Assembly: GCA_016187935.1 (NCBI GenBank)
Contig: JACPIU010000040.1
Location: forward strand, 62,001 to 126,000
Source of the DNA: Bdellovibrio sp.
GTDB lineage: Bacteria > Bdellovibrionota > Bacteriovoracia > Bacteriovoracales > Bacteriovoracaceae
Length of the DNA stretch: 64,000 nucleotides
Reading direction: 5' to 3'
The position numbers and the translations under genes are program-made. The notes under the pieces are model-generated. The model was not told the origin of the DNA. It made no database searches and was given only the letters and a program-made list of their open reading frames with translations. The stretch's first letter is position 1; each line of letters opens with the position of its first letter. Shown one piece after another: positions 45,877 through 56,780 of the stretch.

Positions 45877-46905
45877 ATGCCCGTGGCAACCTATGACCAA
45901 TATTGCAAAATGCTCGACCGCGCTTTTAAAGGTGGTTTTGCTTATCCCGCCATCAATGTCACCTCTCCTTCAACCGCCAATGCCGCCATTAAGGCCTTTG
46001 CCGATAAAAAATGTGATGGCATTATTCAAGTTTCCACTGGCGGCGGAGAATTTATGTCCGGTCAGGCCGTGAAAGATATGGCGTTAGGTTCCATCAGTTT
46101 GGCCCAACATGTTCACTTGGTGGCGGAAAAATATAATGTTCTCATCGCACTCCACACCGATCACTGCCACCCCAAATACATGGCAAAATTCTTGGTTCCA
46201 CTGATCACCGAAACTGAAAATCGTCGGAAAAAAGGGTTACCTAATCTTTTCAATAGCCATATGTTTGATGGTTCTGAAGTTCCTTTGGAAGAAAATCTCA
46301 AAACCTCTTCCGAACTTTTAGAGCGTTGTGCCCGTGCCCAGATTATTTTAGAAGTTGAAACGGGTGTGGTCGGGGGCGAAGAAGACGGTCACAACAATGA
46401 AGGAGCCCCCAGTTCAAAACTCTATACCACTCCGGAAGAAATGGTGGCCGTGGCGAAAAGACTACGCCCTCTCGGTCGCTTTCTCTACGCCGCCACATTT
46501 GGCAACGTCCACGGTGTCTATAAACCCGGCAATGTAAAATTGCGACCTGAAATCTTGAAGAAGGGCCAAGAGGCGGTGATTGCGGCACTCGGAAAAGAGG
46601 CCCGCCACCAGTTAGTGTTCCACGGCGGTAGCGGTTCTGAACTATCCGAAATTCATGAAACTCTCCAGTACGGTGTGGTCAAAATGAACATCGACACTGA
46701 CACTCAGTACGCCTACACTCGCGCTGTGGCCGATCATATGTTCAAAAATTACGACCAAGTCCTCAAGGTGGATAGCGAAGTCGGTGGCAAGAAATTCTAT
46801 GACCCCCGCGCTTGGCTCAAGGCCGCCGAAAACAAAATGACCGAGCGGATTTACCAGGCGGTATCAGACCTAAAGGCCGAAGGGACTTCTCTTCTTCACT
46901 CTTAA
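45877..46905 (+). CDS. fbaA: Class II fructose-bisphosphate aldolase
   Basis: A 342-residue zinc enzyme that splits fructose-1,6-bisphosphate into DHAP and glyceraldehyde-3-phosphate (or the reverse in gluconeogenesis). Class II signatures are clear: ALHTDHCHPKYM (catalytic Asp and zinc His), EVETGVVGGEEDG, GNVHGVYKPGNVKL and FHGGSGSELSEI, then the KMNIDTDTQYAYTR phosphate site. The type is IIA, like E. coli FbaA. A strong ribosome-binding site (AAGGAG) is present. The metallophosphoesterase gene follows after 11 bp. Confidence 0.97.
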   Translation: MPVATYDQYCKMLDRAFKGGFAYPAINVTSPSTANAAIKAFADKKCDGIIQVSTGGGEFMSGQAVKDMALGSISLAQHVHLVAEKYNVLIALHTDHCHPKYMAKFLVPLITETENRRKKGLPNLFNSHMFDGSEVPLEENLKTSSELLERCARAQIILEVETGVVGGEEDGHNNEGAPSSKLYTTPEEMVAVAKRLRPLGRFLYAATFGNVHGVYKPGNVKLRPEILKKGQEAVIAALGKEARHQLVFHGGSGSELSEIHETLQYGVVKMNIDTDTQYAYTRAVADHMFKNYDQVLKVDSEVGGKKFYDPRAWLKAAENKMTERIYQAVSDLKAEGTSLLHS

Positions 46906-46916
46906 GACGAGGCGTT

Positions 46917-48488
46917 ATGAAATTTGCAGTTCATTTTTTTGTATGCTGCTTCTTGTTGTCCTTATGGGGCGTCACTCAGGCCTTTGAATTCAAGGCCGGC
47001 CCTTACGTGCAAAGTGTGGCAGCGAACTCGGCTTCAATCAGAATGGAGGCCGAGTTCGCCGGAACGCCTAAAGTGGTTTTTTTCCGTGAAGGCGAAACCG
47101 AAACTTTCTCGGTTAATGCCACACTGATCGAACGGAATTACCATGCTGATAAGAAAGTAGGGCTCTTTGAAGCAAAACTGATGGGATTGGTGAGCGGGGC
47201 CCGCTATCTCTATCAAATCCAGCAGGGATCTCAAAAAAGTGGACTTTTCCTTTTTAAAACTTTGTTTAAAGAACCACATACCTTTGCCTTTCTTGCCTTA
47301 AGTGATGCCCAAAGCGGATACAAAGTGACACGCCAGGCAGTCAATCAGAGTCTCATGAAATACGCCTTTGCAAGCTACGTTGATGAACGAACCTTTCCCG
47401 TCAGCTTTGCCCTCTTTACTGGAGACTTAGTGCAAAAGGGCAATGAGTATAAACGTTGGAATGAGGAATTTTTCGCTCCTATGGCCCCTCTGATGTCTCG
47501 CTTATGTGTCTATCCGGCGATAGGCAATCACGAGGAAAATACCCCCTATTATTTTTCCTATTTTGCTCTTCCCAGAAATGGTTCGCCGGAAAGTTTGGGC
47601 CATTGGTATTACTTTGATTATCAAAATGTGCGCTTCATCACCCTCAACTCGAACCCGCCCTATACCAATGAAATCCAACTGGCCTGGTTGGATACCTTAT
47701 TACTTGAAACCGAGGGCCGAGGCGATGTGGATTTCGTCGTGCTTCAACTCCACCATCCGGCAGAATCCGAGTTATGGCCTGAAGGCGAATCGCCCTTTTC
47801 AAAAACCGTCAATACAAAGTTGGCCGAATTTATCGGCAAAAGCGGAAAAGCGACCATCGTGCTCTCGGGCCATACCCATGGTTATTCCCGCGGACAAGAC
47901 CCAAATCAGCCGCTGTTTAAATTAATCAATGGGTCTATCGGCGGGGCCACGGATAACTGGGGCGAATTCAAACAGAAAGATTATTTGAATTACGTTATGA
48001 GCAAAGATGAATACGGCTGGCTTTTCGTTCAAGTCACACGTGGTGAGAACGCCGCCATGTCTTTCAAACGTTATAGCTTTGGCAAAGACGGAAATGTGAA
48101 AGATCAAGGAGTGGTTGATCAGTTTATCTTACGCAAAAATAATGCAACTCCCGATACTCCTCATTTAACCATTACAAAAGTGAGCAAACAAATCGCCAAT
48201 ATTGAAAGTAGTCCTTTTAAGGAAGCGCAAGGAGATACCCACCTCACCAGCGAGTGGCAGGCAGGAACAACTCCGGCGATGGACAACATCTTCTGGGGCC
48301 GCACCACTCATGCCTATAATGAATACGGCGGGAGTTTCTATGACTACAAACCGCTTCTAACTAAACTTTCCATAGCTGAAGTTACCGGATCAGGTGAACT
48401 TAAAACCTTTTACGTGAGACTGAGGTACCGCGATTCGGCCTTAGCTTACTCTGACTGGAGTACGCCAATTAAAGTGGAAAGACCGTAA
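46917..48488 (+). CDS. Exported metallophosphoesterase (purple acid phosphatase-like)
   Basis: A 523-residue protein with a signal peptide (MKFAVHFFVCCFLLSLWGVTQA). An N-terminal Fn3-like domain (about 25-110) precedes a calcineurin-type phosphoesterase domain: LSDAQSG, FTGDLVQKG, AIGNHEEN, VLQLHHPAES and LSGHTHGYSRG supply the dimetal ligands. This two-domain layout is that of purple acid phosphatases. It is periplasmic or secreted, probably scavenging phosphate. ATG at 46917 has GACGAGG upstream; longer frames overlap fbaA and are rejected. It is convergent with pepN. Confidence 0.9.
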   Translation: MKFAVHFFVCCFLLSLWGVTQAFEFKAGPYVQSVAANSASIRMEAEFAGTPKVVFFREGETETFSVNATLIERNYHADKKVGLFEAKLMGLVSGARYLYQIQQGSQKSGLFLFKTLFKEPHTFAFLALSDAQSGYKVTRQAVNQSLMKYAFASYVDERTFPVSFALFTGDLVQKGNEYKRWNEEFFAPMAPLMSRLCVYPAIGNHEENTPYYFSYFALPRNGSPESLGHWYYFDYQNVRFITLNSNPPYTNEIQLAWLDTLLLETEGRGDVDFVVLQLHHPAESELWPEGESPFSKTVNTKLAEFIGKSGKATIVLSGHTHGYSRGQDPNQPLFKLINGSIGGATDNWGEFKQKDYLNYVMSKDEYGWLFVQVTRGENAAMSFKRYSFGKDGNVKDQGVVDQFILRKNNATPDTPHLTITKVSKQIANIESSPFKEAQGDTHLTSEWQAGTTPAMDNIFWGRTTHAYNEYGGSFYDYKPLLTKLSIAEVTGSGELKTFYVRLRYRDSALAYSDWSTPIKVERP

Positions 48489-51227: not shown

Positions 51228-51977
51228 ATGTCAAATAAAAGTCATAAGGACCCCAATAAAAAACACTATTTCACAACCGTTTCCATCGAGGAAACACAGC
51301 AAGTTTTTGCCAAAATAGCTCAACAAAATTGTGAAATTCACCTGTGGAAAAAAGGTCACGAAGAGGAAGATATCGAAGTTTTTGAGGTCTTCAACTATCT
51401 TCCCTTGCGCAAGCGATTACTGCTGCGAAAAAAGGGTAGCCTTTTAATCAAACTTATTCCCACCACTTTGTTGAATGAAAACATTTTCTTCAAAATACCC
51501 TATGAGAAATTCAACTACCTCTCAACGGGCATCTTGCTTAAGGATGATGAAACAAAAGAGTATGTCATTAATCTTTGCAATGAAGTCTTTAAGGGACAAC
51601 AACGAACCAATTATCGCTTGGCCACCGGACCTCATATTACAGTCCAATTTAAAATGGATGAGACTGTCTTTGAGGCCCTGGACATAAGCGCTGGTGGGAT
51701 TTCCACCATTATCCCCATTACAGAGAAGGAACGATTCAAAAAGGGAAGAATTATTGAAGGCTGCATTCTACGTTTTAATAAAAAGAACTATGATATTCCA
51801 AAGGCCCTTATCGCTGGGGTTTGGGAGCAAAAAGACAGGGATGGCGACATTCTGCCGGAACTTAAAATAGGCGTTCAGTTTTTAGACCTCACCAAAGAAG
51901 TCGAGGAGTCCCTGGTCCAGCACGTTAACAGCGAGGCCAGAGGCGAAGAAATTAGAAAAAAATTTTTTATGAAGTAA
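51228..51977 (+). CDS. PilZ-domain protein
   Basis: A 249-residue cytoplasmic protein. The C-terminal half (about 124-240) is a PilZ domain with the c-di-GMP motifs RxxxR (RTNYR) and DxSxxG (DISAGGIS). The N-terminal ~110 residues (KIAQQNCEIHLWKKG and later strands) form a YcgR-N-like beta domain. It is probably a c-di-GMP effector for motility or envelope functions, and in this window could respond to the same signal as PelD. It lies divergent from pepN. Confidence 0.9.
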   Translation: MSNKSHKDPNKKHYFTTVSIEETQQVFAKIAQQNCEIHLWKKGHEEEDIEVFEVFNYLPLRKRLLLRKKGSLLIKLIPTTLLNENIFFKIPYEKFNYLSTGILLKDDETKEYVINLCNEVFKGQQRTNYRLATGPHITVQFKMDETVFEALDISAGGISTIIPITEKERFKKGRIIEGCILRFNKKNYDIPKALIAGVWEQKDRDGDILPELKIGVQFLDLTKEVEESLVQHVNSEARGEEIRKKFFMK

Positions 51978-52117: not shown

Positions 52118-53320
52118 ATGAGCAATACTTACTCTTACTCAGATAACAAAATTATTCAAAAGGCCAACCTGCTTCGACAGATGAAGCTCTATCCCTTCCT
52201 TCGCCCCATAGAGGCCACTGAGGGCGCTACCGTGACGGTGGGAGGAAAACGCCAAGTCATGATTGGCTCTAATAACTATTTGGGACTTACCCACCATCCA
52301 GAGGTCATCGAGGCCACAATTAAAGCGGTCATGCAGTATGGTACAGGATGCACAGGGTCACGTTTTTTAAACGGCAATCTCTCCATCCATGAAGAATTGG
52401 AAGAAAAGTTGGCCCGTTATATCGGACACGAAGCTGCGATCTTATTCTCCACCGGGATGCAATCCAACTTAGGTGCTCTTCCGGCCCTCTCTGGCCCGAA
52501 AGACTGCCTCATTTTTGATAATGAAAACCACGCCTCGTTGGTGGATGCCACAAGACTCGCCATGGGAGCAACCTTTAAGTACAAGCACAATGACATGGAA
52601 GGACTGGAGGAGCAACTCCAGCAGGCCTCCGGTCGCTTTAAAAACATAACGATCGTGGCCGATGGCGTATTCTCCATGACCGGAACCATCGTCAACCTAC
52701 CTGAAGTGACCAAACTGGCGCGTAAATATAGCGCCGCCATTTATATTGACGATGCCCACGGCCTTGGCGTGCTAGGCCACCAAGGTCGCGGAACCTTAAA
52801 CCATTTTGAGCTGACCGATCAAGTTGATTTCAATATGGGAACTTTCTCAAAATCCTTTGCCAGTATTGGCGGCTTTGTCTCAGGGCCTAAAGAGGTCATG
52901 GATTACATTCGCCATGCGGCCCGTTCCTTTATGTTTTCCGCTTCCATGCCTCCATCCGCTGTAGCGACTGTTTTAAAATGTCTGGATGTCGTTCAAAGGG
53001 ACGAGGAAATTCATACCAAGCTCTGGAGCAATGTGAAGTTCATGCAACAAGGCTATAAAGATTTAGGTTTTTACACCTATAATTCCCAAACCCCCATCAT
53101 TCCAATTTTCATCGGGGATGATATTAAAGCGATGCAAGTGACGGCCTTCCTGCAAGAAAATGGTATTTTCTGCACTCCGGTGATTCCTCCTGCAGTTCCC
53201 AAAGGTGAGGCGCTTATCAGGACCAGCTATATGCCCATCCATACCAAAGATGATCTCACTTATGTTTTGGAAATTTTTGCCAAGGCCAAAAAGACTTTTC
53301 AAATACCCACTCGACAATAG
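52118..53320 (+). CDS. spt: Serine palmitoyltransferase-like AOS-family PLP enzyme
   Basis: A 400-residue alpha-oxoamine synthase. PLP residues are clear: the Lys in FSKSFASIGGFV, the Asp in YIDDAHGLGVLG, the His in NENHASLVDATR, and GTFSKS. The N-terminal GSNNYLGLTHHP and GTGCTGSRFLNG are typical. BioF, Kbl and SPT all share this fold. SPT is favoured because the other genes here (GNAT acyltransferase, fatty-acid 2-hydroxylase-like, PAP2) fit sphingolipid synthesis and no biotin genes are present. It would condense serine with an acyl-CoA or acyl-ACP to 3-ketosphinganine. It forms an operon with the next gene (6-bp gap). Confidence 0.85.
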   Translation: MSNTYSYSDNKIIQKANLLRQMKLYPFLRPIEATEGATVTVGGKRQVMIGSNNYLGLTHHPEVIEATIKAVMQYGTGCTGSRFLNGNLSIHEELEEKLARYIGHEAAILFSTGMQSNLGALPALSGPKDCLIFDNENHASLVDATRLAMGATFKYKHNDMEGLEEQLQQASGRFKNITIVADGVFSMTGTIVNLPEVTKLARKYSAAIYIDDAHGLGVLGHQGRGTLNHFELTDQVDFNMGTFSKSFASIGGFVSGPKEVMDYIRHAARSFMFSASMPPSAVATVLKCLDVVQRDEEIHTKLWSNVKFMQQGYKDLGFYTYNSQTPIIPIFIGDDIKAMQVTAFLQENGIFCTPVIPPAVPKGEALIRTSYMPIHTKDDLTYVLEIFAKAKKTFQIPTRQ

Positions 53321-53326
53321 GAATTT

Positions 53327-54508
53327 ATGGAAACACAAACAACCTCCTCTTGCTGTACCAATGGACAATGCCAATCGACTCAATCCTCTGAACTACAAAT
53401 CATTGAGGTAGAAGGAAAAAAGGCGATTGCTGACTTTATCAATCTGCCATGGGCCATCTACAAAAACGACGCCCATTGGGTTCCACCGCTTAAAATGGCG
53501 GTCAAAGACCTGCTTGCTCCCAAGCACCCGGTCTATGAGACATGTTCCGCCAAGATGTTTCTCGCCTATAAAAAGGGAGAATGCTGCGGGAGAATTATGG
53601 GCGTGGTCAACCATCACCATAATCAGTTTCATGGTGAAAAATCCGCTCAGTTTGGTTTTTTTGAGGCCATCGATGATAGTGAAGTCGCCCAATGCCTTCT
53701 AAAAAAGGTGGAAGATTGGTCTCTCGCCCAAGGAATGGAAATCGTTCGAGGGCCTTTTAATCCTTCCAGTAATTACGAATGTGGCCTTTTGGTGGAAGGC
53801 TTTCACGATGACCCTCAAATCATGATGACCTACAATCCACCCTACTTTCAAAGCTTAATCGAAGGCGCCGCTTACCAGAAATCGATGGACCTGCTGGCGT
53901 ACCAATTCGATATGTCTTTTGTAATGCCCGAAAAAATCTCGAAAATTTCCAAAAAAGTTGAAGAATCGGCCAACATCACTTATCGAATCATCAATATGAA
54001 AAATTGGCCCGAGGAAGTGGCCCTGATGCGCGAAATCTATAATGCTGCCTGGGAGAAAAACTGGGGTTTTATCCCCATGACCGAAGAGGAATTTGCCCAT
54101 ACCGCAAAGGACCTCAAAACTGTTCTTGATCCCAATTTGATTCTCTTTGTTTATGTTAAAAACGAACCGGCGGGATTTATCGTGGGGCTACCCGATTATA
54201 ACCAGATTTTCAAAACCATCCCGAACGGTAAGCTCTTCCCTACCGGACTTTTCAAACTCTTAACTGGCAAAAAGAAAATTAATCGCTTCCGCGTTCTCAC
54301 CATGGGCGTAAAAGAAAAATTCAGAAATCTCGGTCTGGCATCACTGATGTATGTCAAGGCCTATGAGAACGCCCGAAAAAGCTATCGTGAATGCGAAATG
54401 AGCTGGATTCTGGAAAGCAATTTCAATATGAATCGTCCGCTTCAACTGATGGGAGCAACTCCCTATAAACGCTATCGCATTTTTGAAAAAGTCTTACGCG
54501 TTCATTAG
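53327..54508 (+). CDS. GNAT-type acyltransferase, candidate bacterial ceramide synthase
   Basis: A 393-residue protein. A Cys-rich N-terminal tag (SSCCTNGQC) precedes a first GNAT-like half with RGPFNPSSNYECGLLVEGF and MMTYNPPYFQSL, and a second half with VYVKNEPAGFIVGLPDYNQ and LTMGVKEKFRNLGLASLMY, a normal acyl-CoA/ACP-binding strand-loop. Bacterial ceramide synthase (bCerS of Caulobacter) is a GNAT-fold protein of similar size encoded near spt, and the tight link to spt here suggests the same N-acylation of the long-chain base. The exact substrate is inferred. Confidence 0.7.
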   Translation: METQTTSSCCTNGQCQSTQSSELQIIEVEGKKAIADFINLPWAIYKNDAHWVPPLKMAVKDLLAPKHPVYETCSAKMFLAYKKGECCGRIMGVVNHHHNQFHGEKSAQFGFFEAIDDSEVAQCLLKKVEDWSLAQGMEIVRGPFNPSSNYECGLLVEGFHDDPQIMMTYNPPYFQSLIEGAAYQKSMDLLAYQFDMSFVMPEKISKISKKVEESANITYRIINMKNWPEEVALMREIYNAAWEKNWGFIPMTEEEFAHTAKDLKTVLDPNLILFVYVKNEPAGFIVGLPDYNQIFKTIPNGKLFPTGLFKLLTGKKKINRFRVLTMGVKEKFRNLGLASLMYVKAYENARKSYRECEMSWILESNFNMNRPLQLMGATPYKRYRIFEKVLRVH

Positions 54509-54542
54509 CAGGTTGTTGAAAAAGTCCCAGATGCTAATACGT

Positions 54543-55367
54543 TTAATACGTTAAAGATACCCATGGTCCCATGGCCTCATGGCCTTTTTTCTCATAATGC
54601 ATAAGCGATACTTTGAGATCATGCTGGGCCCACCACTTGTAAAAGGGATGATGATCTTGAAACTTAGATGCTGCCCGCACCCCTTCAGATGCAAATCCTG
54701 CTAGAAAAAAACCTCCCACCACATCAGAGAGGTAATGCTTTCCGTCCTGCACGCGATGAACCGCGGACATGACCGTAAACACCAACGGCACCGTACTCCA
54801 CAAAGGGCCGTAAAACTGCAAAGTTTTAAAAAAAAGCGAGGCATAAGGGACCACATGCCCAGAAGGGAAACTGGAATTGCCCCGAAAATCGGTTTCCCAA
54901 TTGGATAAGTTCTCCTCATTGGGCCGATGATGAATCTGGACATAGCTCAAGACCCCACTTTCCAATAAGGCAATATAGACAGTAGCAGCGTATTCCTTAC
55001 TGAACTGAATAAATTTTTCATCCTCAAGGTATTTTCCCGTATACCACACTCCCATATGAAAGAAGGGCATATTCATGACGATGCCGAAATTACCGATGGT
55101 CGACAAGTGCCATGCAACATCCCCTCGCATATAGTGATTACTAACCCTTTTGTCCTCTTGAAAAGAATACCAAAGAGAAGGCGTTGCCACCCCCGCCCAG
55201 TACAAGTTAGCTTGCTGAGTAAATTGTAGGCCTGCTCCGACATACATGTAGCGGCCGGTTTCTTTCATGGCACCCCAAAGGGATGATTCTATGGAAGGAC
55301 TGCTTTCATTGGCCCAACACTTCATGCCGACCATAACCATAAGCGACAAGATGATGAATTTTTTCAT
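54543..55367 (-). CDS. PAP2-family lipid phosphatase
   Basis: A protein of about 274 residues. A signal or anchor segment (FIILSLMVMVGMKCWA) is followed by several hydrophobic helices. PAP2 motifs: HHRPNEE (part of motif 1), SSFPSGH (motif 2) and HRVQDGKHYLSDVVGG (motif 3 His and Asp). It removes phosphate from lipid phosphates, perhaps a sphingoid or ceramide phosphate given the context. It follows the fatty-acid hydroxylase gene with overlap (TTG 55373) or 2 bp (ATG 55367, preferred). It is convergent with the acyltransferase gene. Confidence 0.85.
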   Translation of the reverse strand: MKKFIILSLMVMVGMKCWANESSPSIESSLWGAMKETGRYMYVGAGLQFTQQANLYWAGVATPSLWYSFQEDKRVSNHYMRGDVAWHLSTIGNFGIVMNMPFFHMGVWYTGKYLEDEKFIQFSKEYAATVYIALLESGVLSYVQIHHRPNEENLSNWETDFRGNSSFPSGHVVPYASLFFKTLQFYGPLWSTVPLVFTVMSAVHRVQDGKHYLSDVVGGFFLAGFASEGVRAASKFQDHHPFYKWWAQHDLKVSLMHYEKKGHEAMGPWVSLTY

Positions 55368-55369
55368 GC

Positions 55370-55966
55370 TCAATCAATCGTTTTAAGAAGATAGTCCCAT
55401 AAAGGCGAACTAACACCATACTTGCATGGTTTATGATTATAGTGATGCTTGAGGTGATAGGCACGCAAAAAACGACCAACAGGTCCCGTCATGGGAAAGT
55501 GGTGAGTAGCATAATGAATATAATCATAGCTCAGATAGCCCATCAAAAAAAAGGCCATAAAGAGAGATAGATACTCAGGAGCAATGACCAGTTTGAAGCA
55601 TAAATAAAGGACACTTACAATCAAGACCGCTGGCACAGGAGGCATAACCAACCGTCGACCATCTTGCGGGTCATCGTGATGAAGACCATGAAAAAGATAA
55701 ACCAATCTCTTAACGACAGAGCTTGAGGCCTGGTAATGGAAGATAAAACGATGAAGCGCATATTCCGTGAAGGTCCAAACCAATAAAGCGATCCCCCCCC
55801 ACACGACATGAATGAGCGTACTGTGATGATAAGTCCGATAACTCTGATAAAACAGTCCCAAGATAATAGGTGTCCAGAATACCGCCGGGATGGCCGGGTG
55901 AATGTAGGTCAGTGATTCCAAAAATGGATTTTTAAAGAGGCGTATTGAAGTGTGTTCTTTGCCCAT
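55370..55966 (-). CDS. Fatty-acid hydroxylase (FA2H/Scs7-like)
   Basis: A 198-residue membrane protein of the fatty-acid hydroxylase/sterol desaturase superfamily. Four His clusters bind the two irons: EYALHRFIFH, FHGLHHDDP, DYIHYATHHFP and YHLKHHYNH. These clusters, with the small size and the C-terminal KYGVSSPLWDYL, match FA2H (yeast Scs7), which 2-hydroxylates the acyl chain of ceramides, but without the cytochrome b5 domain. It is co-transcribed with the PAP2 gene and sits beside spt. It likely makes 2-hydroxy-ceramide, as seen in sphingolipids of Bacteriovorax stolpii. Confidence 0.9.
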   Translation of the reverse strand: MGKEHTSIRLFKNPFLESLTYIHPAIPAVFWTPIILGLFYQSYRTYHHSTLIHVVWGGIALLVWTFTEYALHRFIFHYQASSSVVKRLVYLFHGLHHDDPQDGRRLVMPPVPAVLIVSVLYLCFKLVIAPEYLSLFMAFFLMGYLSYDYIHYATHHFPMTGPVGRFLRAYHLKHHYNHKPCKYGVSSPLWDYLLKTID

Positions 55967-56087
55967 GAACTTGATCCTAGTTGGAGAGGCAAAAAACCAT
56001 AATTGATGGGATTATTTTTGTAAACCTCCACCGAGGCCCGACAGACTTCAATGGCCGTTATGACGAATTGGTGGCATTATCTCGATC

Positions 56088-56780
56088 ATGCGATTGCTAA
56101 GCTTATTTCTTTTCTTTTTTCTGGGTCTCTTGTCCTCATCCTCGGCCTGGTCAATGGGCCGCCCTTTTACAGTTCAAGTTGTCGAGGTAAAAGGCGAAGT
56201 ATGGCCTAAAATAATTATTACCGGAGCTATCGCAACCGATCCTCTCACCGCCGTGGCGCTTTACTATGATCTCGATAATCAACACAGCTATATCCCCGAT
56301 CTTCCTGTCTCACTGCCGATGAAACATATCTCGCCCACAGAGGTGCATACTTACTACGAAAGAAAACTGCCTTGGCCTTTCGATAAAGGAATTTACGTCA
56401 ATGGAACAACTTTAGAGAAGCTGCCCGATGGACATCGCGTAAGATGGTATCAAGTTTACAATCCTGATTCTCACGATGCCACCGGCAGTGCCACCTTTGT
56501 CACACACCCCGAAGGAACATGGATGACCTATGAAACTTTTGTTCGCCCTAAAAGTTTTTTTGCCGGCATTATAAAAAAGATTTTTCAAAAGGAAACTCTC
56601 GCCGCCCTCTATGCGCTGAGAGAGCATATCGAATCGACGGCCAAAAACTCTCCTGGCCTTGCCGAACAATATCGCCAATATATTTTACAGGCCTATCAGG
56701 GTCTTTCCCCCTACGAACCTAGCATTAAAAAAAATGCTACAAAAATCGAACAAATCCAAAAAGAAATTTCCAAGCACTAA
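56088..56780 (+). CDS. Exported START/SRPBCC-like protein
   Basis: A 230-residue protein with a signal peptide (LLSLFLFFFLGLLSSSSAWS). The central part (VKGEVWPKIIITGAIATDPLTAVALYYDLDNQHSYIPDLP, then STRAND segments through HRVRWYQVYNPD and GTWMTYETFV) resembles the START/polyketide-cyclase lipid-binding fold, whose members carry single lipids. The C-terminal ~50 residues are helical. It is divergent from the fatty-acid hydroxylase gene with 121 bp between. It could shuttle a sphingolipid or sterol-like lipid in the periplasm, but this is inferred from fold and location only. Confidence 0.7.
   Translation: MRLLSLFLFFFLGLLSSSSAWSMGRPFTVQVVEVKGEVWPKIIITGAIATDPLTAVALYYDLDNQHSYIPDLPVSLPMKHISPTEVHTYYERKLPWPFDKGIYVNGTTLEKLPDGHRVRWYQVYNPDSHDATGSATFVTHPEGTWMTYETFVRPKSFFAGIIKKIFQKETLAALYALREHIESTAKNSPGLAEQYRQYILQAYQGLSPYEPSIKKNATKIEQIQKEISKH

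Follow-up and report, generated by a model that had tools for sequence, protein, structure and literature searches.

A conserved Bdellovibrionota locus with predicted roles in making, hydroxylating and carrying a ceramide-type lipid

Gene content of the locus

The sequence analyzed here, referred to as the window, is a 64,000-nucleotide stretch of contig JACPIU010000040.1 from a Bdellovibrio sp. genome (assembly GCA_016187935.1), in which a first-pass annotation had recognized a candidate 2-hydroxy-sphingolipid locus of a Bdellovibrionota-like genome at positions 52118–56780. All five genes were present as open reading frames where that annotation had placed them (coordinates are those of the window), and the assignment to a Bdellovibrionota-like genome was likewise supported. 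On the forward strand, spt (52118–53320) encodes a predicted serine palmitoyltransferase (SPT)-type alpha-oxoamine synthase of 400 aa and is followed, after a gap of 6 bases, by bcerS (53327–54508), which encodes a tandem-GNAT N-acyltransferase of the bacterial ceramide synthase (bCerS) type with 393 aa. On the reverse strand, pap2 (54543–55373; 276 aa, a predicted exported PAP2-superfamily phosphatase or phosphotransferase with a signal-peptide-like N-terminus) and fah (55370–55966; 198 aa, a predicted FA2H/Scs7-type membrane hydroxylase without a cytochrome b5 domain) overlap by 4 bases. These two pairs are convergent, and the forward-strand gene of an exported START-fold protein (56088–56780; 230 aa, a predicted periplasmic lipid carrier) is divergent from fah. 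The Pfam scores were 185 bits for Aminotran_1_2 in the pyridoxal phosphate (PLP) enzyme encoded by spt, 27 bits for Acetyltransf_1 in the GNAT protein, 43 bits for PAP2 (PF01569; PF14378 also matched, with 29 bits) and 69 bits for FA_hydroxylase (PF04116).

The PLP enzyme resembles serine palmitoyltransferase

Among solved structures in the Protein Data Bank (PDB), the PLP enzyme matched the SPT of Sphingobacterium most closely (400 bits, against 266–273 bits for Kbl types), in agreement with the SPT-type reading of the first-pass annotation; cysteate C-fatty acyltransferase was a detectable relative at 256 bits. NCBIfam models ranked SPT-CFB (494 bits) above Kbl (390 bits) and BioF (387 bits), and the PLP lysine, the stacking His, the Asp/His pair and the GTFSKS motif all aligned with 8guh/3a2b, as in SPTs. 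A tree was built with SPTs from Sphingobacterium and Sphingomonas, with BioF and Kbl from E. coli and with the Kbl encoded in the same genome; in it, the enzyme fell on the SPT side and was split from Kbl/BioF by a 96/96 branch (corresponding support 100/99 when the long BioF branch was left out), so that it grouped with neither of them. Since deep branches among the SPTs were weakly supported and the Kbl group, without BioF, joined near the Bdellovibrionota SPTs, the tree speaks more firmly for 'not Kbl, not BioF' than for a single clade shared with proven SPTs. An enzyme of ordinary biotin or threonine metabolism beside unrelated genes would share the fold family, and no separate BioF was found in the genome with the PLP-enzyme query; however, the tree position lies outside both groups, the only further family member that this query returned is a Kbl (665 bits, passing its cut-off) encoded away from the locus directly behind a threonine-dehydrogenase-like (Tdh) gene, and the operon-like pairing with an N-acyltransferase is conserved across the phylum, so we regard this explanation as highly improbable. 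Judged from its sequence, the PLP enzyme is serine-palmitoyltransferase-like and nearer to proven SPTs than to Kbl or BioF.

The GNAT protein is of the bCerS type

The predicted structure of the GNAT protein was confident (predicted local distance difference test, pLDDT, 88) and matched tandem GNAT proteins (Foldseek E 1.7e-13). Clusters of Roseovarius and of Gammaproteobacteria, among them Porticoccus, contain relatives at 33–36% identity, and for Roseovarius and Porticoccus the accompanying SPT exceeds the NCBIfam SPT threshold of 500 (578 and 598, respectively). GNAT relatives stand near certified SPTs and near genes like that of the ceramide-pathway reductase CerR in Alpha- and Gammaproteobacteria, and bcerS orthologues adjoin both spt and cerR in 12 relatives, the window itself having spt only. 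On this context, and with the tandem-GNAT fold, the protein is assigned to the bCerS type as first proposed, the link to Caulobacter bCerS being indirect, via the Roseovarius clusters. In the window's genus the GNAT protein carries a disordered, cysteine-bearing N-terminal tail (METQTTSSCCTNGQC, encoded at 53327–53390), which is absent from other aligned genera.

The hydroxylase is a relative of FA2H and Scs7

The only PDB match of the fah product was the yeast ceramide hydroxylase Scs7 (4zr1, E 7e-22), with 35% identity over 181 residues and 11 of the 11 Scs7 core histidines aligned with histidines. It is therefore with Scs7, and not with carotenoid or sterol enzymes, that the protein pairs among solved structures, and its description as FA2H-like in the first-pass annotation stands. 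PF04116 also includes sterol and sphinganine hydroxylases, and the subfamily comparison was made with Scs7 as the sole PF04116 relative among solved structures, hence without Sur2; both points would leave room for a hydroxylase acting on the sphingoid base (at C4, Sur2-like) or on another lipid. The identity over the Scs7 catalytic core, which extends to the RLVMPP stretch and to every core histidine, argues against such a target, as do the FA2H-like proteins of myxobacteria, which are reported to be 2-hydroxylases (PMC10002949), and we consider it unlikely. By sequence comparison the fah product is an FA2H/Scs7 relative, for which C2 of the N-acyl chain is most likely the position hydroxylated. 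Two further PF04116 proteins (L001 and L003) are encoded in the genome, both away from the locus.

The exported proteins have PAP2 and START folds

When the PAP2 protein was checked for the motifs KxxxxxxRP, PSGH and SRxxxxxHxxxD, the RP, PSGH and RxxxxxHxxxD parts were present, and the SGH and RxxxxxHxxxD residues were invariant across an alignment of eight members (A4). The exported protein of 56088–56780 had no Pfam match, and a sequence profile search reached a bacterial STAR-related protein with an E value of only 0.059. Its AlphaFold model (pLDDT 89), in turn, gave as the top Foldseek match the bacterial STAR-related lipid transfer protein 3qsz (E 5.5e-10, target template modelling (TM) score 0.76), and STARD10 and the ceramide-bound START domain of CERT were within the first ten matches (TM ~0.5–0.58). 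The confident model is that of a START domain, which upholds the START-like fold that had been suggested from the letters, and since its N-terminus is hydrophobic the protein is predicted to be periplasmic.

The gene set is conserved across many genera

In relatives, the common order is PilZ, spt, bcerS and cerR, then pap2-fah on the opposite strand, then START. This block is recurrent in Bacteriovoracaceae and Halobacteriovoraceae, the named relatives bearing it including Bacteriovoracaceae, Halobacteriovorax and other Bdellovibrionota, and the set keeps its order across many genera at protein identities of roughly 30–70%, so it is not a chance neighbourhood. Within the window's family, all 14 fah-bearing genomes carry bcerS, whereas 4 have bcerS only and 7 have neither (Fisher p 0.0007, uncorrected for relatedness); fah is retained on another contig in three genomes (G001, G010 and G022). 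When the count was limited to loci in which fah is flanked by 6.5 kb on either side, SPT and GNAT genes lay near it in 21 of 25 Bdellovibrionota loci and 4 of 4 alphaproteobacterial loci, and of the 20 gammaproteobacterial loci 14 had a GNAT gene nearby and 16 a CerR-like gene. Beside fah, a START gene (divergent from it) and a PAP2 gene were each present in 28 of 80 loci, from many genera, and a PilZ gene is near fah/spt in 27. PAP2 and START were seen only in Bdellovibrionota-type clusters, some metagenome-assembled genomes (MAGs) with such clusters being labelled as other phyla. The locus is a real functional unit, and one of its two striking features is that bacterial ceramide genes are here stably associated with genes for an FA2H-type hydroxylase, a PAP2 protein and a periplasmic START protein.

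In a Bdellovibrionales MAG, a fatty acid desaturase (L129:4894-5856, reverse strand; 95 and 35 bits) whose N-terminal domain is of the Lipid_DES type known from sphingolipid delta-4 desaturases adjoins fah, bcerS and spt and is a candidate bacterial dihydroceramide desaturase. No sphingolipid delta-4 desaturase was found in the window's genome, a weak negative in that the control search gave no match anywhere.

The usual 3-keto reductase is missing from the genus

Two bacterial 3-keto reductions have been described, one by CerR, which is assigned to the periplasm and whose electron donor is unknown (PMC11087976), and one by the classical short-chain dehydrogenase/reductase (SDR) BT_0972 of Bacteroides, a 3-ketosphinganine reductase with homologues reported in Bdellovibrio (PMC9278070). 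Although cerR adjoins bcerS in most relatives (the 12 mentioned above), a search with profile A1, in which CerR-bearing genera of the family score 250–506 bits, found no CerR in any of the three genomes searched from the window's genus (completeness 99% for the window's genome, 100% for G002 and 83% for G001), nor an orthologue in G022 and G013. The genomes of loci L103 and L129 agreed in this search, and that of L094 gave the same matches as G001. The first-pass annotation had proposed searching the remainder of the genome for a CerR-like reductase; that search was negative, its top match (74 bits over half of the model) being an OleD-like reductase. This reductase lies on contig C48 of the window's genome (L052:1180-3595) beside an AMP-ligase-like protein that resembles OleC by position, an arrangement that suggests long-chain olefin synthesis.

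The absence of CerR, the second striking feature, calls for another explanation of the 3-keto reduction step in this genus. Two other candidates were rejected: an old-yellow-enzyme oxidoreductase as a shared replacement had only 29–38% identical matches in the window's genus, and the classical SDR L066, considered as KDSR, returned generic SDRs only in a PDB search. In the simplest reading, another reductase probably replaces CerR here, a classical SDR like BT_0972 being one possibility. In the CerR-less G022, an old-yellow-enzyme flavin mononucleotide (FMN) oxidoreductase is encoded directly behind bcerS (L036:9345-10565, forward strand).

Proposed pathway and points against it

Taking gene content, folds and conservation together, we think it quite likely that the locus is a sphingolipid unit which would make, hydroxylate and carry a ceramide-type lipid, with its enzymatic steps, hydroxylation position and START cargo inferred. 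Spt would condense serine and a fatty acyl thioester into 3-ketosphinganine, which the tandem GNAT would N-acylate to 3-oxo-ceramide; the FA2H-type membrane hydroxylase would introduce a hydroxyl group, with C2 of the N-acyl chain as the most likely site; the 3-keto reduction normally carried out by CerR would probably fall to a different reductase; the exported PAP2 enzyme may act in the periplasm on the head group or on a phosphorylated precursor; and the periplasmic START protein may carry the (hydroxy)ceramide between membranes.

Several observations weigh against this pathway. The products and the lipid identity are predictions from genes. The PLP enzyme scored below the curated SPT cut-offs of NCBIfam (494/640 for NF047600 and 369/500 for NF047599) and reached the cut-off of none of the other NCBIfam models either, and with the cysteate C-fatty acyltransferase match and the missing CerR this could mean that the enzyme makes another long-chain alpha-oxoamine (capnine/sulfonolipid-type, or a deoxy base), the locus lipid then being ceramide-like and not a true sphingolipid. 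We judge this very unlikely: the SPT match is far higher (400 versus 256 bits), spt of the same kind sits with cerR in most relatives, and an SPT of the Bdellovibrio group is biochemically established (PMC6148460). The motif-1 lysine of PAP2 is replaced by serine in 8 of 8 members of A4, which makes its phosphatase activity uncertain. START domains bind many lipids, so the fold by itself does not imply a ceramide cargo. PAP2 and START genes were not found within 6.5 kb of fah in the alpha- and gammaproteobacterial clusters, and both folds are generic; in addition, at locus L033 of G001, a genome of the same genus, an EptA/MCR-like phosphoethanolamine transferase gene (L033:3300-4991, forward strand; 658 bits) lies beside bcerS and occupies the place of pap2-fah-START. 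It is thus conceivable, though on balance doubtful, that spt and bcerS make a sphingolipid while pap2 and START are mere neighbours serving another envelope lipid, against which stands their repeated position beside fah in many genera.

A more specific form of the sphingolipid pathway, in which START serves specifically to shuttle ceramide to the outer membrane, and the genus either uses another 3-keto reductase or keeps 2-hydroxy-3-oxo-ceramide as end product, is put forward only tentatively and we would not expect it to hold in full. As for the head group, a phosphonate of the type found in B. stolpii is unlikely, since no phosphoenolpyruvate (PEP) mutase match was obtained in the window's genome; the EptA-like gene may point to a phosphoethanolamine head group in the G001 species.

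Relation to known sphingolipid systems

The first-pass annotation had taken bacterial sphingolipid genes to be known mainly from Bacteroidetes and Caulobacter and an FA2H-type hydroxylase to lie outside the described bacterial sets, neither of which holds. MAGs from 38 phyla reportedly encode Spt-like proteins (PMC11334938), and published work describes an SPT and a sphingophosphonolipid in Bdellovibrio stolpii (PMC6148460) and FA2H-homologous 2-hydroxylases tied to sphingolipids in myxobacteria (Ring 2009, via PMC10002949); in view of these the locus is not a new kind. B. stolpii (also Bacteriovorax; PMC6148460, PMC8154272) belongs to the same phylum and its SPT has been characterized biochemically, but its head group is 1-hydroxy-2-aminoethylphosphonate, whereas PEP mutase found no match in the window's genome. 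The myxobacterial proteins, likened by description only, share FA2H homology, conserved His motifs and the sphingolipid tie.

Compared with the spt-bcerS-cerR genes of Caulobacter crescentus (PMC11087976, PMC11324152), the window likewise has Spt and a GNAT-type bCerS, its relatives carry an NAD-epimerase-type CerR beside bcerS, and hydroxylated N-acyl chains occur in Caulobacter. However, ceramide hydroxylation there is ascribed to CC_0202, a DesA-family enzyme encoded outside the cluster (PMC11324152), whereas the hydroxylase here is of the FA2H/PF04116 type and encoded beside it; the window's genus also lacks CerR and links PAP2 and START. With yeast Scs7 and mammalian FA2H the fah product shares the catalytic core but, at 198 aa, not the N-terminal cytochrome b5 domain, and with the ceramide transfer protein CERT (STARD11) the exported protein shares the START fold at 10–14% identity, the window protein differing in being exported.

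Sphingolipid transport to the outer membrane and 3-keto reduction in bacteria are open or debated (PMC11087976 versus PMC9278070). The START protein is a concrete candidate carrier, and a clade without CerR has kept spt, bcerS and fah, which opens both questions to testing within a single group. In Bdellovibrionota, Gammaproteobacteria and Roseovarius, ceramide genes regularly have as neighbour a hydroxylase of the FA2H type, a kind of enzyme familiar chiefly from eukaryotes.

Surroundings of the locus

Promoter and terminator scans gave no signal clearly exceeding that of shuffled sequences. Upstream of spt lies the conserved neighbour encoding a PilZ-domain protein (51228–51977, forward strand; PF07238, 33 bits), which makes a link to cyclic di-GMP possible, and downstream of the locus the nuo (complex I) operon begins at about 57000. 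Further upstream, 46875–48488 encodes a calcineurin-like phosphoesterase (Metallophos, 48 bits) whose hydrophobic N-terminus resembles a signal peptide; among the compared loci, it occurs at the same place in G002 only.

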